DNA of 17,294 nt from an uncultured Synergistales bacterium (GTDB lineage: Bacteria > Synergistota > Synergistia > Synergistales > Aminobacteriaceae), in assembly GCA_905234205.1 (NCBI GenBank), contig CAJOGG010000021.1, forward strand, positions 891-18,184. Direction: 5' to 3'. Of this stretch, positions 2-15,951 are shown piece by piece. The notes under the pieces are model-generated. The model was not told the origin of the DNA. It did no database searches and was given only the letters and a program-made list of their open reading frames with translations. Numbering within the stretch: the first letter of the stretch is position 1; every line of letters begins with the position of its first letter. Position numbers and translations under genes: made by a program.

Positions 2-1348
2 AATTTTGACGTGCCTCCTACGTTAATATCGTTTGCTGTGAGTGTTGCTGACGTTCACGAAATAATCACACCTGAATTTAAGCGTGCCGGCTCACGAGTC
101 ATCTTGCTTGAACCTGATTACGATGATAAGGGCTTGCCTGTAAGTGACTCGTTGCTGAAAATTTTTGATGAGCTTCAGAAACTCAACGCTGCGGGAAAAA
201 TTTTGTCGTGCTACGTGCCAACGTTTGGAGGAGTTAAAGCTGCTACCTTCAAAATGTGCTTGGGAAATAATTTTGGCTTTGAGTTCACCAACACGAATTA
301 TCACAACAATCATTGCCAATTTATCATTGAGATTAACGACGCTGAATACGGAAAAGAGCTTGGCCGAGTGATTGAGTCTCCGGAAATTATATTTAACGGT
401 GAACATGAGCAACTTTCTGACCTTGAGAAAATTTATGATGCGCCACTGGAGTCAATCTTCCCGACGAAAACTCAAGAGGCTTTACAGATTCCCGACGTGA
501 AGATAAATTCTGACCTACCAAAAACTTTTTACGCTCACAAACTCTCTACGCAAGCAAGCTTCTTGATACCCGTATTTGCCGGGACTAATTGCGAGTACGA
601 GACGGCCAAGGCAATTCACAAAGCTGGAGGCAAGCCGGAAATTTTCGTAGTGAGAACTTTAACGCCCGAACTTATGCGACAATCAGCCGAGGAATTTTCA
701 CGCAAGCTCAAAGATTCTCAAGCTCTAGTTTTGCCTGGAGGATTCTCAAATGGAGACGAGCCTGACGGGTCAGGGAAATTCATAGCGATATTCTTGCGTA
801 GTCCTGAAGTTAGTGAAAGTGTTGCTAATTTGCTTGACGTTAAAGGCGGATTAATCTGTGGAATATGTAACGGATTTCAAGCTCTAGTCAAGACAGGTTT
901 GCTCCCGTTTGGTAAAATTTGCTCACCCGAAGAATTGCCCAGCACTTTGACATTTAATTCAATCGGCCGACATCAATCCAGAATAATTCGTTCTCGTGTA
1001 ATCGCTAATCATTCGCCCTGGTTGAGACTCACAAAAGTTGGCGAAGTGTATTCAATCCCCATTTCTCACGGTGAAGGAAAATTCTTGTGCGATGAAACTA
1101 TGTTCAGGAAGTTAATGAGCGCTGGCCAAGTCGCAGGACAATATGTCAACTTCAACAACGAGCCTTCAATGGAAACGCAATTTAATCCGTCGGGTTCATG
1201 TTATGCTATTGAGTGCTTGACGTCTCCAGATGGCAGAGTTTTAGGGCGAATGGGGCACGTTGAAAGAGTTGGACGCGATTTGTACAGGAATGTCCTCGGA
1301 AATTATGACATGAAATTTTTTGAGGCAGCCTGTGAATATTTTAGTTAA
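2..1348 (+). CDS. purL: Phosphoribosylformylglycinamidine synthase, C-terminal part (5' truncated by window)
   Basis: This enzyme converts FGAR, ATP and glutamine to FGAM in the fourth step of purine synthesis. About 448 residues are visible. The reading frame is open to the window edge and begins inside the conserved motif NFDVPPTLISFAVSVADV, so the ATG-less start near base 11 is not a real start; the N-terminal ATP-binding half lies outside. The first part is the end of the second AIRS-like synthetase domain. From about base 560 the chain is a fused class I glutamine amidotransferase domain: VFAGTNCEYETAKA, VLPGGFSNGD, the nucleophile Cys in GICNGFQA (codon at 866), and the His and Glu of GHVER (codons at 1256 and 1262). 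This is the large single-chain PurL, not the separate PurL/PurQ/PurS form. The stop codon overlaps the Shine-Dalgarno sequence of the next gene, which suggests co-transcription. Identity is secure; only the missing 5' end is unknown. Confidence 0.95.
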   Translation, partial: NFDVPPTLISFAVSVADVHEIITPEFKRAGSRVILLEPDYDDKGLPVSDSLLKIFDELQKLNAAGKILSCYVPTFGGVKAATFKMCLGNNFGFEFTNTNYHNNHCQFIIEINDAEYGKELGRVIESPEIIFNGEHEQLSDLEKIYDAPLESIFPTKTQEALQIPDVKINSDLPKTFYAHKLSTQASFLIPVFAGTNCEYETAKAIHKAGGKPEIFVVRTLTPELMRQSAEEFSRKLKDSQALVLPGGFSNGDEPDGSGKFIAIFLRSPEVSESVANLLDVKGGLICGICNGFQALVKTGLLPFGKICSPEELPSTLTFNSIGRHQSRIIRSRVIANHSPWLRLTKVGEVYSIPISHGEGKFLCDETMFRKLMSAGQVAGQYVNFNNEPSMETQFNPSGSCYAIECLTSPDGRVLGRMGHVERVGRDLYRNVLGNYDMKFFEAACEYFS

Positions 1349-1364
1349 GGAGTTGTTATAAACT

Positions 1365-4175
1365 TTGGAACGCAAAAATCTTGAGCAATACCTAGGAATG
1401 AATATCGAAATCATGTTGATGCCGGACGGTCACAAAACCTCCGGTGTCCTTCTTAAATGTGAAGATGATCATATAGCTTTAGGCAATGAGTTATGGGTTT
1501 ACCCAATGATATGGGGAGTTCGTCCTATAGATAATAAAGTCGAAATAGACAAGCAGCCAGAAGCTCCCGTTAATGTTTCACCTGAACAACCAAAATCTCA
1601 AAGCATAAACTTTCAAAGCGACCTCGATAAATATTTTCACCTTATGCAGCAGGATTTAGAAGCTTATACGTTAAACGCCGATTATGTTCGCAAATTTAGA
1701 CAGAAGGGCCCAAATAAGATCCAGAAGATTATCGAGAGCATACTCACTAAATATCAATATGCAGTCAAGACTCATGAAGATAGACCTTACTCTATGCGTA
1801 TGCGCGAAATTCTTAACACAGCTTATCAATTATGGAAGGCGAACAAGAATAATATAGCCGCGTCAGAAATTTATGCATTCGTTCTATATCTTACTGGTGA
1901 AAGTGAGAGAAGCGTAAAACTTTATGTGCGAGTTCATGATTTTCACGGAGCTTTTATGGCCGCAGCGTCGACAGCCTCAAAGATTTTAGCCTCAACATGT
2001 ATAGCTATAAGTGAACCTTTAACGCCTAAAAATTTCGCTACGTTATTGAAACTTGATCCGCCGCAATTGATTACCCTCCTGAAATGGATTATGAACAATG
2101 CGATTCTTAACGATAACTCTACGGAAGAATATAAAGAATTATGCTTTAATCATGTTGCTAGTTTATCGGCAAAAGTTTTGGGCTTTTCATCGTGGAACGA
2201 CAACGACACTTTATTCTCGCAAGCTAATATTGACGCGTTAATGCAATGGCTTGAAACTCAACCTGACGACAATAAAATTATCACTGATGCTGAAAAACTC
2301 GTAGATAAATCGAAATTGCCAATCCTTGAAGATAACAGTAAACCTAAAATTGACTGGACTACAGTGAGATTTGAAGGAGAGTTCGATTTCTTTAACCCCA
2401 ACCGCGACAAATTATATGGCTTTATCAAGTGTCCAATCCTCAAAAAATATAACGTGCCTTTACGCTCTGAAAATTCCGTTTTCGTTCACTTCAATCAGAT
2501 TCAGGACAGAGATTTACGCCGTAAATTATTGCTCGATAAAAAAATGAAGCCACAAATTCGTGTTACGTTCAAACTTGGCAATAACGTTGAGGGCCCGGCA
2601 GCGTTTGAGGTGCGCGAGAAACAATCTAGCATGGCTGATACGTTATTGAAGGTCGATGTGGCCGCAGCTTTATCTGAAGAGGGCGAAATAGATTTTTATA
2701 GGCGTCATGAAGATATTCCATTCGGGAAAGTCAGAACCAAAGACGGAAAGTTATACACGTTCAACGAGAGCAATATTATTGATCCTGTGTTAGCTGTCTT
2801 TCTCGAATACACTCCTTCAGCAGAAGGCCACCCCGTTAGATTTACTAAAACTTTTCTCGAGAACAACAAAGTTCAAATTCATAATATCGAGTCCGCAATA
2901 AATTTCCCTGAAGATAAGCTAAAGGCTTGGGAAGAAGGGGGCTTAATCAAGAAAGCTAAGGAGCGAATGAATATTAATTTCACCGACGACGAATTTAACC
3001 ACGAAGATAGCGAGATAACTGACGAGATTGACGAGTTAATTAATCGTGGTTACATACCGCTTGATGTATATTCTCCTGATAATGGCAACGAAACGAAAAT
3101 TGCAGACGTGCTTCAAGTAAACGACATTAGCGAACAAAAAAGAAACGGCGTGGAGACTTTCAACGAGTTACCAAAATTTTTGCAGGATAAAATATTGAGC
3201 GTGAGGACGGCCGGCAAAGTCAACACAGAATTTTTGGGCGATACACTTTACAGACGCGGGCATTATAAAGAAGTCAAGGCGAATTATTTGCAGCTTATAG
3301 GCAAGTTCAACAGTGAGGACGCTACACTTACAAACGCTGAACGGGCTGAACAATGTATCTTGATTGCCAGATACGTGTACAATTTTTTCGCTCTTGCTGA
3401 TTATGCTGACATAAAACTTTATTCCGCCTCCGAAGAAGATAATATTCGCGTGATGGCTTACAAGGGACTCGAATACTTGATCTATGAACAACTTGACGGG
3501 GCCAAGAAGAACGAAGCAAATTACGATACTGCCCGAAGATTTTGTTTGCTCAAGATAGCCGACGAGATTCAGACAGCAAGACAAATTGATAATGACAACA
3601 TGTGGCTGAAAATTTATATTTACTCGTATTTTGTGAATGGCTTGAGAGTCCATAGCAAGAGTGGTAAATGGTCGCCGCAGAATATTTCGTTGGCCGGGAG
3701 CAGCTTGCTTGAGTGCAACGACTTCAATAAATTCTACGATGGTTTGTTGGCATTAGCTTACGTGACAGAACCTTCGCTTTTGTATAAGACTCTGCGTGAC
3801 GTGCTTTACAATCCTGAATACGCGGGAATGTTGCTTGAGAAACTTGGCCTTGATTACAGCAAAGGAAATATAATGACTCAGCTTCAGGAGAGCTTCCAAA
3901 ATTCACTCAACGAATACGCAAAACGTAAAGATATATTCATGCAGGACCCTGAAGTGAAACTTTCGCCGGAGATATTTAGAATCTTGAGCGTACAATCTGG
4001 AATAATTCGCCTAATGAAACGAGAGCTTGCTAACGTGTTGAAGACTTCCCCGGAAAATCTTGACCCAGCTTTGAAACGAGTTATCCCTATACTTGATAGT
4101 GACGAGTCCAGAAATTCTCTGGCCAAGACGCGACGAAAATATAACCCTGAACTCTGCTTGATATTCTTCCGATAA
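1365..4175 (+). CDS. Large multi-domain putative RNA-binding protein (Sm-like, two cold-shock-like domains, helical repeats), frameshifted before its HEPN domain
   Basis: I do not recognise this as a named gene. It starts at TTG 1365, with AAGGAG at 1347-1352 overlapping the purL stop; no better start is seen. Residues about 8-56 (LGMNIEIMLMPDG, DDHIALGNELWV, WGVRPID) resemble an Sm/Hfq-like small barrel. Residues about 334-418 look like a cold-shock OB domain: YGFI at about 351, then SVFVHFNQI and EGPAAFEV. Residues about 438-506 (EGEIDFYRRHEDIPFG, YTFNESNI, VRFTK) look like a diverged second copy. Residues about 595-800 are helical and may be TPR-like (LGDTLYRRGHYKEV). The frame ends in a low-quality tail (KYNPELCLIFFR), while a HEPN domain continues one frame away (entry at 4151). 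Removing the shift gives 3,030 bases and about 1,009 residues. Domain calls are by eye and function is inferred as RNA-related. No transmembrane segment is seen. Confidence 0.75.
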   Translation: MERKNLEQYLGMNIEIMLMPDGHKTSGVLLKCEDDHIALGNELWVYPMIWGVRPIDNKVEIDKQPEAPVNVSPEQPKSQSINFQSDLDKYFHLMQQDLEAYTLNADYVRKFRQKGPNKIQKIIESILTKYQYAVKTHEDRPYSMRMREILNTAYQLWKANKNNIAASEIYAFVLYLTGESERSVKLYVRVHDFHGAFMAAASTASKILASTCIAISEPLTPKNFATLLKLDPPQLITLLKWIMNNAILNDNSTEEYKELCFNHVASLSAKVLGFSSWNDNDTLFSQANIDALMQWLETQPDDNKIITDAEKLVDKSKLPILEDNSKPKIDWTTVRFEGEFDFFNPNRDKLYGFIKCPILKKYNVPLRSENSVFVHFNQIQDRDLRRKLLLDKKMKPQIRVTFKLGNNVEGPAAFEVREKQSSMADTLLKVDVAAALSEEGEIDFYRRHEDIPFGKVRTKDGKLYTFNESNIIDPVLAVFLEYTPSAEGHPVRFTKTFLENNKVQIHNIESAINFPEDKLKAWEEGGLIKKAKERMNINFTDDEFNHEDSEITDEIDELINRGYIPLDVYSPDNGNETKIADVLQVNDISEQKRNGVETFNELPKFLQDKILSVRTAGKVNTEFLGDTLYRRGHYKEVKANYLQLIGKFNSEDATLTNAERAEQCILIARYVYNFFALADYADIKLYSASEEDNIRVMAYKGLEYLIYEQLDGAKKNEANYDTARRFCLLKIADEIQTARQIDNDNMWLKIYIYSYFVNGLRVHSKSGKWSPQNISLAGSSLLECNDFNKFYDGLLALAYVTEPSLLYKTLRDVLYNPEYAGMLLEKLGLDYSKGNIMTQLQESFQNSLNEYAKRKDIFMQDPEVKLSPEIFRILSVQSGIIRLMKRELANVLKTSPENLDPALKRVIPILDSDESRNSLAKTRRKYNPELCLIFFR

Positions 4176-4393
4176 ACGTGCTTGGAAAAATCATGGGGCA
4201 ACATTGGCCGACGTTCGCAGTGTATTTCAACAACAAATCTTATAACATGTACTGGAAGGAACGTTTCGAAAAATTACAATGGGTTCGTAATCCTGTCGTT
4301 CATGCTCACCCCGAGTATGTCAAGAAAGAGGACGTTGAACAAGTGAAAGCTATTTGTCAGGAAATTACGGAATGCCTTGCAGGAAAATTGTAA
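4151..4393 (+). pseudogene. Frameshifted C-terminal HEPN (Swt1-type) domain of the preceding gene
   Basis: This frame opens just after TGA 4148-4150 and reads LLDILPINVLGKIMGQHW, then a helical stretch. It contains RNPVVH (R codon 4286, H codon 4301), an Rx4H motif typical of HEPN domains, and the pattern fits the Swt1-type subgroup. An ATG-like start inside it (GTG at 4178) has no Shine-Dalgarno sequence. The 71-residue piece would be only half a domain, so it is best read as the C-terminus of the gene starting at 1365. The upstream frame stops at 4173-4175, so the shift must fall in 4151-4175, and a single missing base restores the fusion. HEPN domains with Rx4-6H are often metal-independent ribonucleases; activity here is unproven. 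The cause could be a sequencing error, a real mutation or, less likely, recoding. Confidence 0.8.
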
Positions 4394-4406
4394 CGAGATA
4401 ACAAAA

Positions 4407-4433
4407 TCCCCACTGCCTTAATGACAATGGGGA
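4407..4433. terminator. Hairpin between convergent genes, possible bidirectional terminator
   Basis: TCCCCACTG at 4407-4415 pairs with CAATGGGGA at 4425-4433, with one mismatch and a 9-base loop. It lies between the + strand HEPN gene (ends 4393) and the minus-strand hsp20 gene (ends 4456). The T-run is weak on both sides: only TTTTG follows on the minus strand and there is no run on the + strand. Termination is therefore plausible but not certain. Confidence 0.55.
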
Positions 4434-4455
4434 CTCAAATTATTTGCTCTAATTA

Positions 4456-5103: not shown

Positions 5104-6285
5104 TTAAGCTTTTCTGCCCTTCATGTATGACAAGCAAACAAGCAATAAGGCAACAGCTATTAAGCCGCCCGCTATTAACGGTCTGAATCTTATCCAAGCT
5201 AGAGCGATTATGATCAACGACCACGCAAGCCCAAGCAAGAACGCCACGAAGCCTGTGCCAGCTCCAATAATATCGCCAACCAATGGGATTACGTCACCAA
5301 GAACTGATAACGGCCTCAAGATCATTCCTAAACCAACCATGACTAACACAACTCCGACGACGCGCAATATCCAAGCCATCAAATTATTGTCAGAGCGTGC
5401 GCCCTCAAACATTGTTGCCATTCCAATTTTGCCCATTGTGAGTCTGCTGAAGGTGTAGCCGTTTGACGCCGTGAAAGGTTCAAATGTATCACGAATAACT
5501 TGCGCAATTATTGAGACTTCAGCCGAAGGAGTTTGCGAAAATGTTACGCGTACGTCGCCGATTGAAGGTGAGCCAGGATTAGGGCCAAGATAGACTGTGC
5601 TTCCAGAAACATGAATCAATTCTTCCGGCGTGTACATGTTGCTGTATGCTTCTGACATTGTTATAACGCCCTTGACAGCATTAACGTCAACGCTTGCCAA
5701 AGTCATAGGTGTTGAGCCGCTTATTGAGTGTTTCAGGAAATCAGGAAGTTTGTACGCGCCGAAAGTTACTTCAGGGGCCCAGATAGTATTGTCATCGAGT
5801 TTTGCTAACGTAGTGTTCAATCCGCGATAACTTGGATCTTTGAATGAGTTCGAGTCAACTGGATCTGATGCCCAAGTTTGTTCGTAAGTGTAAGTTGTAA
5901 CGGTCTCTTCACCACCGCCGAGTTTCTTGCGAGTCTCTGAATGCGAATGTTCTTCCCACTGATAAAACTCAACTTCACGTTCAAGATTTATTGCGTTAGT
6001 CTCAACTCCGAAAACTGGATCGCGCAAAATATTTTTCGTATCAGCTCTGTCTATTGCGTGAATAACTTTGCCTTCGAGTGCCGGATCAACTTTGCTGATG
6101 TCCTTAACGTCTTGCGTCACCAATTCAGCCTCACCAATTGCTCCAGCAGTCTTGAAAGTTCTGCCTTCATTCCACCATAATAGCCATGTAGCCAACGCGA
6201 TTATCACGAAGCCAATAAGTATTCCCTTAAATGCCTCGCCTAAACGTTGAAACCAATTCTTGCTGGTAGTCTCTGTATATGCCAT
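5104..6285 (-). CDS. TMEM43-family membrane protein
   Basis: A 393-residue integral membrane protein of the TMEM43 (LUMA) family, whose bacterial role is unknown. One N-terminal transmembrane helix spans about residues 20-39 and is followed by the family signature LLWWNEGRTFKT. A large middle region carries VEFYQWEEHSHSETRK and YTYEQTW, typical of the family. The C-terminal 110 residues form about four hydrophobic helices starting near NLMAWILRVVGVV. AGGAGG lies 8 bases upstream of the ATG. The gene begins 12 bases after ispE ends and closes with the terminator at 5051-5078, so it may be the last gene of the long minus-strand operon. Confidence 0.85.
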   Translation of the reverse strand: MAYTETTSKNWFQRLGEAFKGILIGFVIIALATWLLWWNEGRTFKTAGAIGEAELVTQDVKDISKVDPALEGKVIHAIDRADTKNILRDPVFGVETNAINLEREVEFYQWEEHSHSETRKKLGGGEETVTTYTYEQTWASDPVDSNSFKDPSYRGLNTTLAKLDDNTIWAPEVTFGAYKLPDFLKHSISGSTPMTLASVDVNAVKGVITMSEAYSNMYTPEELIHVSGSTVYLGPNPGSPSIGDVRVTFSQTPSAEVSIIAQVIRDTFEPFTASNGYTFSRLTMGKIGMATMFEGARSDNNLMAWILRVVGVVLVMVGLGMILRPLSVLGDVIPLVGDIIGAGTGFVAFLLGLAWSLIIIALAWIRFRPLIAGGLIAVALLLVCLSYMKGRKA

Positions 6286-14474: not shown

Positions 14475-15164
14475 TTGAAGACTCGTAAAGCGGCTATATT
14501 ATTTGCGTTATTCCTTTGCTACTTGTATTTCCGAGGCATTGGAGATCACGGCCTGATTGATCCGGTTGAAGGAGTAAACGCGTCAGTAGCTCTTCACATG
14601 GTTGCGGGGAGAAATTATTTTGTCCCTAAGATTGGCAATGAATTAACAGCTGGCTCAACTATGGGGACGTGGTGGCTTGAAGCTCTGTCGCTTGACTTAT
14701 TCGGCTGGAGTGAATTTGCTGTAAGGTTCTGGTCGGCTTTGTCGGGGCTCGTCATGATTTTGGCGGCGGCTTTGTCTGCTCGTTCAAGTGATGATTCTGT
14801 TAAGACTTCACGAAAATTTTTATCCAGTTGGCTTGCTGCTTGTGCGTGCGCAAGTATGACTCTTTGCTTCATAGCCTCACAAATTGCTTCGTCTCATGCT
14901 ATATTTTCCTGCCTCACTGCTTTAGCTATGACCGGGGTAATACGTTCGCGCGGTGACAAAGCTTGGTTGATGCTGTCTCATACTTCAATAGCCTTTGCAT
15001 TCATAGCACACGGTCCGGCGGGATTGTTCATGCCGATTTTGGCGGTGTCGTCATATTGCGTTCTGTGCAACGACATGGAACTATTCAAAGACTTTTTCAC
15101 GTGGCCATTTAATATCCGGCTCTTATTACGTTATGCTGATATTCATAAATCCAAGCGTGATTGA
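14475..15164 (+). CDS. ArnT/PMT_2-like membrane glycosyltransferase, N-terminal segment (frameshifted)
   Basis: The first of three pieces of one gene. It starts at TTG 14475, directly after the previous stop, and no clear Shine-Dalgarno sequence is seen. The N-terminal helix LFALFLCYLYFRGIGD is followed by LIDPVEGVNASVALHMVAGR and NYFVPKIG, matching the first periplasmic loop of ArnT-type transferases, where an acidic residue is catalytic. Several more helices follow. After FFTWPFNIRLLL (to about 15129) this frame turns into RYADIHKSKRD and stops. The true continuation is in the +1 frame from about 15130 (VMLIFINPSVIEF). The family moves a sugar from a polyprenyl carrier to lipid A, lipids or proteins; the substrate here is unknown. 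Confidence 0.82.
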   Translation: MKTRKAAILFALFLCYLYFRGIGDHGLIDPVEGVNASVALHMVAGRNYFVPKIGNELTAGSTMGTWWLEALSLDLFGWSEFAVRFWSALSGLVMILAAALSARSSDDSVKTSRKFLSSWLAACACASMTLCFIASQIASSHAIFSCLTALAMTGVIRSRGDKAWLMLSHTSIAFAFIAHGPAGLFMPILAVSSYCVLCNDMELFKDFFTWPFNIRLLLRYADIHKSKRD

Positions 15165-15951
15165 GTTTATGGTGTGCCGAAATCATAATTACACGTTCGG
15201 AGGGATCCTAGGCATAATAGTTTTCGTGATAGTAGGTTTTGCTCCGTTCCATGGATTTTTGCTAAGGGCATTGTACGAGATAGTCCCGCGAAAATATCCT
15301 GCCTCTAAATCTCCAGAGCTATTCATGTTCGTATGGGCTGTGGTGTTTGCGTTTTATGCTGTTGCTTCAATGGATATATTAACGTTGGCGGCATGTGTCC
15401 CGGCATTGAGCGCGCTTCTCGGGAGAAAGTTAGATTTTTGGCTGAACAAAAAATTTTTGTCGGTAAGATATTCCGTCATGTTCAATATCTTGATATCGAT
15501 ACCACTGTTTTATATAGCGTTGCCGTTGATGATGAACTACGTACCAGTTATAAAGGTTTCGTTGCTGAGTTTGATACCTTATGAAATTATGCTTGGATTG
15601 TTCTTGATCGCATGTTGGTATTACACTAAGACTAGGCAAATTACAAAATGGATGCGTAATGTTTCTGCTGCGGCGTTGTTGTGCTTAATGCCTATTGCAG
15701 GAGTATTTAATCTTACGGCTGAAGTTTATGGCATTCGAGATATTGGGCTAAAGCTGCGTGATTTAATTCGGACTGATGATATAGTGCTTCAGTATGAAGT
15801 AAATTTTCCATCGTTATATTTCTACACTTTGAGAAATAACCCCGGGCGTAACCGAGAGGAGATTTGTTTATCCGGCGTCAGTGATCGAGCCTGTATGGAC
15901 AGGAAAAAACCGCGCGTTCTTGATAATTCCCACGGACAGAAGCACAGATAG
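15133..15951 (+). CDS. ArnT/PMT_2-like glycosyltransferase, middle segment (frameshifted)
   Basis: Continuation of the gene at 14475 in the next frame; the ATG at 15133 is internal, not a start. It shows FMVCRNHNYTFGGILGIIVF, matching the HN-type loop of ArnT-like enzymes, then helices such as FVWAVVFAFYAVASMDIL and LLGRKLDFWLNKKF. Late in the segment VLQYEVNFPSLYFYTLRN marks the periplasmic C-terminal domain. After about 15840 the frame gives an implausible basic tail ending at 15951. The good continuation (PGVTERRFVYPASVIEPV) is one frame further on. Removing one extra base at each break makes 1,542 bases, about 513 residues, a normal length for the family. Confidence 0.82.
   Translation: MLIFINPSVIEFMVCRNHNYTFGGILGIIVFVIVGFAPFHGFLLRALYEIVPRKYPASKSPELFMFVWAVVFAFYAVASMDILTLAACVPALSALLGRKLDFWLNKKFLSVRYSVMFNILISIPLFYIALPLMMNYVPVIKVSLLSLIPYEIMLGLFLIACWYYTKTRQITKWMRNVSAAALLCLMPIAGVFNLTAEVYGIRDIGLKLRDLIRTDDIVLQYEVNFPSLYFYTLRNNPGRNREEICLSGVSDRACMDRKKPRVLDNSHGQKHR

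Follow-up and report, generated by a model that had tools for sequence, protein, structure and literature searches.

Several published proteins and systems of bacterial conflict combine HEPN domains with STAND modules and with S1 or cold-shock-like domains. Swt1-like HEPN domains fused to STAND-ATPase, TPR and S1 modules are listed for Npun_F6454, MED222_16016 and Desac_1927 (PMC3710099, Table 1), and two-gene nSTAND2 counter-invader systems with a HEPN or GT4 effector are likewise described (PMC8195603). The CoCoNuT type IV restriction systems form one class in which both HEPN RNases and cold-shock-like OB folds are found (PMC11090510). Here we describe a gene, X, in a stretch of 17,294 nucleotides from an uncultured Synergistales bacterium (contig CAJOGG010000021.1, positions 891 to 18,184; the whole stretch is called the window below). 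X follows purL, and its product of about 1,009 residues has an Sm-like N-terminus, two cold-shock-like domains, helical regions and, very likely, a C-terminal HEPN domain.

As far as the published descriptions go, X shares with the Swt1-HEPN fusions a Swt1-type HEPN domain with Rx4H, helical repeats, OB-fold RNA-binding domains and, in the relative from genome G022, STAND-like modules. It is set apart by cold-shock rather than S1 domains, by the Sm-like N-terminus, by the purL neighbour and, G022 excepted among the forms read, by having no ATPase. The likeness to the nSTAND2 systems as described lies in G022, where two adjacent overlapping open reading frames (ORFs) each carry a STAND-like ATPase and the second ends in HEPN; the differences are that both P-loops of G022 look intact, that ORF1 bears the RNA-binding half of X, that the nSTAND2 match in G022 has only E 0.048, and that X itself has no STAND. 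In CoCoNuT, going by its description, the corresponding domains sit on McrB-type and separate effector proteins, and McrB was not among the window proteins scanned. The architecture of X was not found in the titles and abstract openings of the literature searched. The original prediction, which knew of no named family with this combination, holds for the libraries searched, namely Pfam, NCBIfam, PADLOC and the PDB, but the joining of HEPN to RNA-binding OB domains does have precedents.

In our view X is probably a HEPN endoribonuclease that binds RNA and is expressed with purL, and it is a variant of known conflict or stress HEPN proteins. Its place behind purL is unusually fixed.

The HEPN domain

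Known HEPN RNases are metal-independent dimers with an arginine and a histidine in the active site, and their Rx4-6H motif has a polar residue after the arginine. The corresponding motif of X, R-[N/D]-x3-H, satisfies this pattern and is invariant in 52/52 intact family members (35 with R-D, 17 with R-N), and again in a count of 28/28, so that none of these sequences lacks the Rx4H residues. At E <=1, 9 of the 29 rows of the A2 alignment (28 with HEPN, one helical only) matched HEPN_Swt1, the best at 9.9e-5, while two matched HEPN_RiboL-PSP, one HEPN_Apea and the first row none. Alignment to seven Swt1-HEPN stretches with hhalign paired both the arginine and the histidine (score 22.1, P 0.0057, probability 6.4%). 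As a control, the slice of X starting at residue 851, which contains the HEPN domain, scored 18.6, and 17 slices starting at 1 to 801 scored at most 13.8; the slices overlap one another, and those from 751 and 801 extend into HEPN, hence not all are HEPN-independent. The structural model of the C-terminal part aligns to two chains of Csm6, a CARF-HEPN ribonuclease. Other than Csm6, no HEPN entry was noted among the 50 structure matches listed for this model, and Cas13a, listed by Foldseek at E 0.79, is not significant.

Three results weigh against this assignment and the nuclease interpretation built on it. No Pfam HEPN match was found in the window ORF or in seven whole relatives. A six-frame scan of 183 genomes with PF18731 detected a single X gene, that of G028 (E 1.7e-4, 22.4 bits vs. 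a cut-off of 27.5), and X thus falls short of formal Pfam membership in HEPN (Swt1-like, PF18731). In the reverse direction, a hidden Markov model of the X HEPN gave no separation between Swt1-HEPN ORFs and reversed decoys. Taken together, a HEPN domain in X is very likely, and the Swt1-type domain with Rx4H that had been proposed is supported by profile, structure and conservation tests, with profile scores under the Pfam cut-off. It is quite unlikely that X is instead an RNA chaperone whose HEPN serves for RNA binding or dimerisation and has no catalytic role. The nuclease activity of X is a prediction, and the HEPN of eukaryotic Swt1 is described as possibly inactive through motif loss (PMC3710099), whereas in X both motif residues are invariant in the two sets given above.

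The Sm-like and cold-shock domains

The Sm / RimP-C SH3 family PF17384 exceeds its cut-off only in the relative from G018 and reaches E <=1 in 4/31 members. Of the two cold-shock-like domains, CSD1 has the OB fold together with RNP1 and RNP2 motifs, and CSD2 has the fold alone. Neither the window ORF nor the seven whole relatives reach the cold-shock cut-off of Pfam (27 bits), their scores being at most 20.1 bits, and a paralogue of X, here called Y, also remains under it with 22.8 bits. The best Foldseek match of X is the tandem cold-shock pair of Unr/CSDE1 (6y6m), a eukaryotic protein in which the relative placement of the two domains is not matched by X (root-mean-square deviation 17.6) and in which, to our knowledge, no HEPN is known. 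A PDB sequence search with a profile of the 52 intact members (A1; 995-1067 residues) gave a single match at chance level, and the Pfam scan of the window ORF and the seven whole relatives yielded no ATPase match.

The remaining architecture foreseen for X, with its Sm-like N-terminus, two cold-shock-like domains of which the second is diverged, and helical region, was supported by the profile, structure and conservation tests. Profile searches did return Sm, OB and HEPN matches, those to HEPN and to the cold-shock domains lying below the curated cut-offs.

The reading frame of X

In the source assembly G000 (2,296,916 bases, 311 contigs, 92.8% complete), X lies at 1365-4393 (+) of the window and its frame shifts locally near 4151-4163. 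When the intact relative P0001 was compared to the window by tblastn, its residues 1-931 fell on 1365-4163 (90% identity) and its residues 929-1008 on 4151-4390 in another frame (94% identity); the second-frame piece terminates in WVRNPVVHAHPEY...CLAGKL at 4393. The coordinates and the length predicted for the restored protein were correct. A gene decaying in the source strain, with a real frame change that removes the HEPN motif, appears rather unlikely: the change is present in the sequence, but the second-frame piece has kept its high identity to the relative, related genomes have X as an open frame, and the assembly is a draft in many contigs.

Distribution of the family

Protein searches gave 62 matches, and all 10 that bear a source name are labelled "Synergistaceae bacterium"; the 60 proteins found with the A1 profile are all among them, and the diverged form from G018 retrieved itself and one relative of 587 amino acids. 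Among 185 Synergistota genomes surveyed, X matches occur in 31/43 genomes of one genus and in 0/142 outside it. The protein searches likewise indicated no relatives outside the genus, and none were found in the collections of viral contigs, plasmids and phages. A scan of contigs with the window ORF as query gave no match. With A2 it returned 26 loci, whose titles read Synergistales, Synergistaceae or uncultured Fretibacterium; 23 of the titles name a ruminant animal or the rumen, and the other three (uncultured Fretibacterium) state no habitat.

X or a variant of it is present in 28 of the 31 matching genomes. In the remaining three, G034 has only an N-terminal protein of 215 amino acids behind purL, G015 only a short paralogue, and G018 a diverged form of 722 amino acids. 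The G018 gene lies away from purL (L050:5413-7581, -; L numbers denote loci), and a C19orf12-like small protein (weak match) is encoded before it. Both the G018 form and the X of G028 (731 amino acids) are without most of helical region 2. Paralogue Y, of 312 amino acids in the source genome (G000:C159, L002:1501-2439, -), combines the Sm-like domain with both cold-shock domains but has no HEPN, and a separate Y-like ORF is found in 13/43 genomes of the genus.

A STAND-like form in G022

The slot behind purL in G022 (L049:7914-14449) holds an X that is split by two STAND-like ATPase modules and spread over two overlapping ORFs. ORF1 (1683 amino acids) matches X residues 1-575 and 590-858 and has a C-terminal ATPase (AAA_16, E 8.5e-7, 30.1 bits vs. 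a cut-off of 32.6; nSTAND1, 2.1e-4, below cut-off). ORF2 (523 amino acids) has an ATPase with an AAA_16 match of 8e-6, also below cut-off, and the nSTAND2 match of 0.048, and has a terminal HEPN domain 43% identical to that of X. Since matches to ORF2 in other genomes begin at residue 347 or later, its ATPase part is found nowhere else in the 183 genomes. Membership in the two-gene nSTAND2-HEPN class does not extend to X, as STAND-like ATPases occur only in G022 and score under the Pfam cut-offs.

Linkage to purL and evolution

X lies directly 3' of purL on the same strand in 27/28 genomes with upstream sequence (20/21 plus 7/7 further), a count that leaves out L071, which begins inside X, and four rows repeating genomes already counted; the exception is G018. 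The gap between the two genes is 15-92 bases in 19/20 loci and 157 in L039 (G003, aligned start used), and GGAG precedes X in 20/20 loci displayed. In L039 a terminator-like hairpin separates purL and X, and X may therefore have a promoter of its own there. PurL relatives at this position have 1189-1269 amino acids, contig-edge pieces excepted. The other flanks vary: immediately before purL the commonest gene is purD (5/18 loci), and the gene found most often downstream of X occurs in 9/19 (G018 included). G003, G009, G030 and G036 (4/7 genomes tested) have an AICARFT (PurH-type) gene on the same contig as X, and G009, G030 and G036 also have a PurN-type formyltransferase there; the PurH-/PurN-type genes of G030 are about 12 kb off. 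A search with Rfam gave no riboswitch match at the gathering score in 10 sources.

The linkage implies that X is expressed with purine synthesis, and X is presumably transcribed together with purL. As a tie to purine metabolism this is weakened by the consideration that conserved linkage alone may only reflect the lack of a separate X promoter.

The trees of X and purL have three main clades in common (judged by eye), with G000 and G006 placed differently; the purL of G000 is only 37% filled. Mapped on a purL tree that covers 32 genomes, the presence of X requires 5 changes, a number equally low in 0/500 shuffles. Some exchange of X is possible, since in G007 and G020 X is more alike (97%) than purL (93%). 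Over 210 pairs, in which the diverged forms are included, the correlation between X and purL identities is only moderate (r 0.38). Ratios of nonsynonymous to synonymous substitution rates (dN/dS) are 0.05-0.18 for X in 8/9 close pairs (one is saturated) and 0.08-0.14 for purL, these values being rough because many dS are near or above 0.8. X is under purifying selection, and it is a real, lineage-specific gene.

Much of this evidence agrees with a narrower form of the endoribonuclease interpretation, in which X is a housekeeping RNA processing or mRNA-stability factor (a regulator or RNA chaperone with nuclease) that sits in the purine operon for co-expression and has no anti-invader role. The common main clades, the dN/dS of X within the purL range, the linkage to a metabolic gene, the purD and purH neighbours and the lack of relatives in phage, plasmid and viral collections all favour such a factor. 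We regard it as possible though doubtful, as X appears dispensable, 12/43 genomes of the genus being without a match and a paralogue or N-terminal fragment being all that G015 and G034 have, and as the STAND-like form exists in G022.

Two further observations concern purL itself. In G024 and G092, which have no X, a convergent gene directly follows purL and begins like the ArsP_1 permease that follows X elsewhere (by-eye comparison); a supposed Shine-Dalgarno remnant after purL in G092 was discarded, the same bases being part of the convergent gene. The genus has a single-chain PurL, and 4 genomes of two other genera in the family (L091-L094) match it as ORFs of 244-413 amino acids. These matches cover only the amidotransferase part, which suggests that the purL of the genus may have had a different origin.

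Defence context and neighbouring genes

The window is without recognised defence genes, its proteins being mostly housekeeping and four of those scanned having no Pfam match, and a defence island in the window was ruled out on the grounds of this mostly housekeeping content. None of 4 X proteins matched PADLOC, and among five relatives or pieces scanned one did, the G022 HEPN ORF (PDC-M34B, E 6.3e-5). Of 10 chosen neighbour proteins, from only some of the loci, 8 were without a PADLOC match at E 0.01; the other two are a D5-like primase with weak reverse-transcriptase matches (L041) and a SecA matched via its SEC-C motif (L036). The primase gene lies downstream of X (L041:4235-6667). By reading, we take L045:452-2551, near purL-X, to be a TIR-like Sel1-repeat protein, and L047:15992-16504, upstream, is presumably a YoeB/RelB-like pair. 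The comparison of gene neighbours with defence islands that had been proposed thus gave a divided result: nothing recognised in the window, and the L041 primase and the conflict-type genes of L045 and L047 elsewhere. The purL-X region is no defence island in the window, yet in some loci it does have mobile or conflict genes nearby.

X could also be a counter-invader (abortive infection) effector that belongs to a HEPN conflict system but lacks STAND; on infection it would cut RNA and arrest growth. This would again be a narrower form of the endoribonuclease interpretation. The conflict-type or mobile genes near some loci speak for such an effector, as does G022, which combines the N-terminal parts of X with a STAND-like ATPase, followed by an ORF with ATPase and related HEPN that PADLOC recognises. 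The nSTAND2 systems with HEPN effectors (PMC8195603) and the Swt1-like HEPN proteins with STAND, TPR and S1 (PMC3710099), so far as described, provide published precedents. This role, and with it the phage response suggested in the original prediction, is possible though doubtful, given the lack of defence genes in the window and of PADLOC matches for the X proteins, the absence of relatives from the viral-contig, plasmid and phage collections, the low dN/dS, the near-strict purL linkage and the confinement of the ORF2 ATPase part to G022.

The features of the purL-X region are collected in Table 1. Elsewhere in the window, a bacterial TMEM43-family membrane protein (PF07787, E 3.4e-71) is encoded at 5104-6285 (-) beside the Hsp20 gene. 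Two overlapping ORFs in different frames at 14475-15951, the first PMT_2-like and the second matching nothing in Pfam, may represent a single broken gene; tblastn with a relative reached only the first.

Table 1 Features of the purL-X region (window positions)
Feature	Position	Strand	Basis
C-terminal part of single-chain PurL (phosphoribosylformylglycinamidine synthase with glutamine amidotransferase domain)	2..1348	+	PF13507 GATase_5, E 5.8e-69
Ribosome-binding site AAGGAG, overlapping the purL stop and preceding the TTG start of X at 1365	1347..1352	+	Direct reading
X, first open piece, 936 amino acids: Sm-like, helical 1, CSD1, CSD2, helical 2, start of HEPN	1365..4175	+	ORF and tblastn
Sm-like / RimP-C-like SH3, residues ~1-55	1365..1529	+	Strand pattern of model; PF17384 in relatives
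Helical region 1, residues ~82-316	1608..2312	+	AlphaFold2 model of P0001
Cold-shock domain 1 (CSD1), residues ~331-420, RNP1- and RNP2-like motifs retained	2355..2624	+	Fold and motifs
Cold-shock domain 2 (CSD2), residues ~432-514, without RNP motifs	2658..2906	+	
Helical region 2 (MID), residues ~596-859; absent in G028 and G018 relatives	3150..3940	+	
HEPN; frame shift inside near 4151-4163; R-N-P-V-V-H motif and stop in second frame	3945..4393	+	
Hairpin past the X stop, in common with the Hsp20 gene that converges on X; resembles a terminator on the - strand	4404..4436	.	

Proposed function and significance

That X binds and cuts RNA is inferred because known HEPN RNases and cold-shock domains do so. 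The original prediction of an RNA-binding and possibly RNA-cutting factor agrees with this interpretation. In the mechanism we propose, X would share its transcript with purL. Its Sm/RimP-C-like domain and canonical CSD1, aided by the degenerate CSD2, would retain either single-stranded RNA or a ribonucleoprotein, relay or dimerisation would fall to the helical regions, and the C-terminal Swt1-type HEPN would cut RNA via its R-[N/D]-x3-H site. The trigger and role are likewise conjectural; a stress, nucleotide-shortage or invader signal would most likely lead X to cut cellular or foreign RNA, and X would be a chromosomally fixed relative of HEPN effectors from conflict systems. A bolder idea, which we think improbable, is that X is a purine-coupled RNase, expressed with purL, that responds to the state of RNA or nucleotides by cutting RNA, thereby fitting translation or growth to the purine supply, and that it represents a regulatory class from a domesticated STAND-HEPN conflict system.

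If X is the endoribonuclease that we favour, a predicted RNA-cutting effector would have a fixed place next to a core gene of metabolism in much of a genus and would be inherited largely with purL rather than by island hopping. X may act as a switch that cuts RNA and is linked to nucleotide metabolism, or it may derive from a bacterial defence system. It would provide a test case both for the entry of conflict-type HEPN proteins into normal cell physiology and for the wiring between purine synthesis and RNA turnover.
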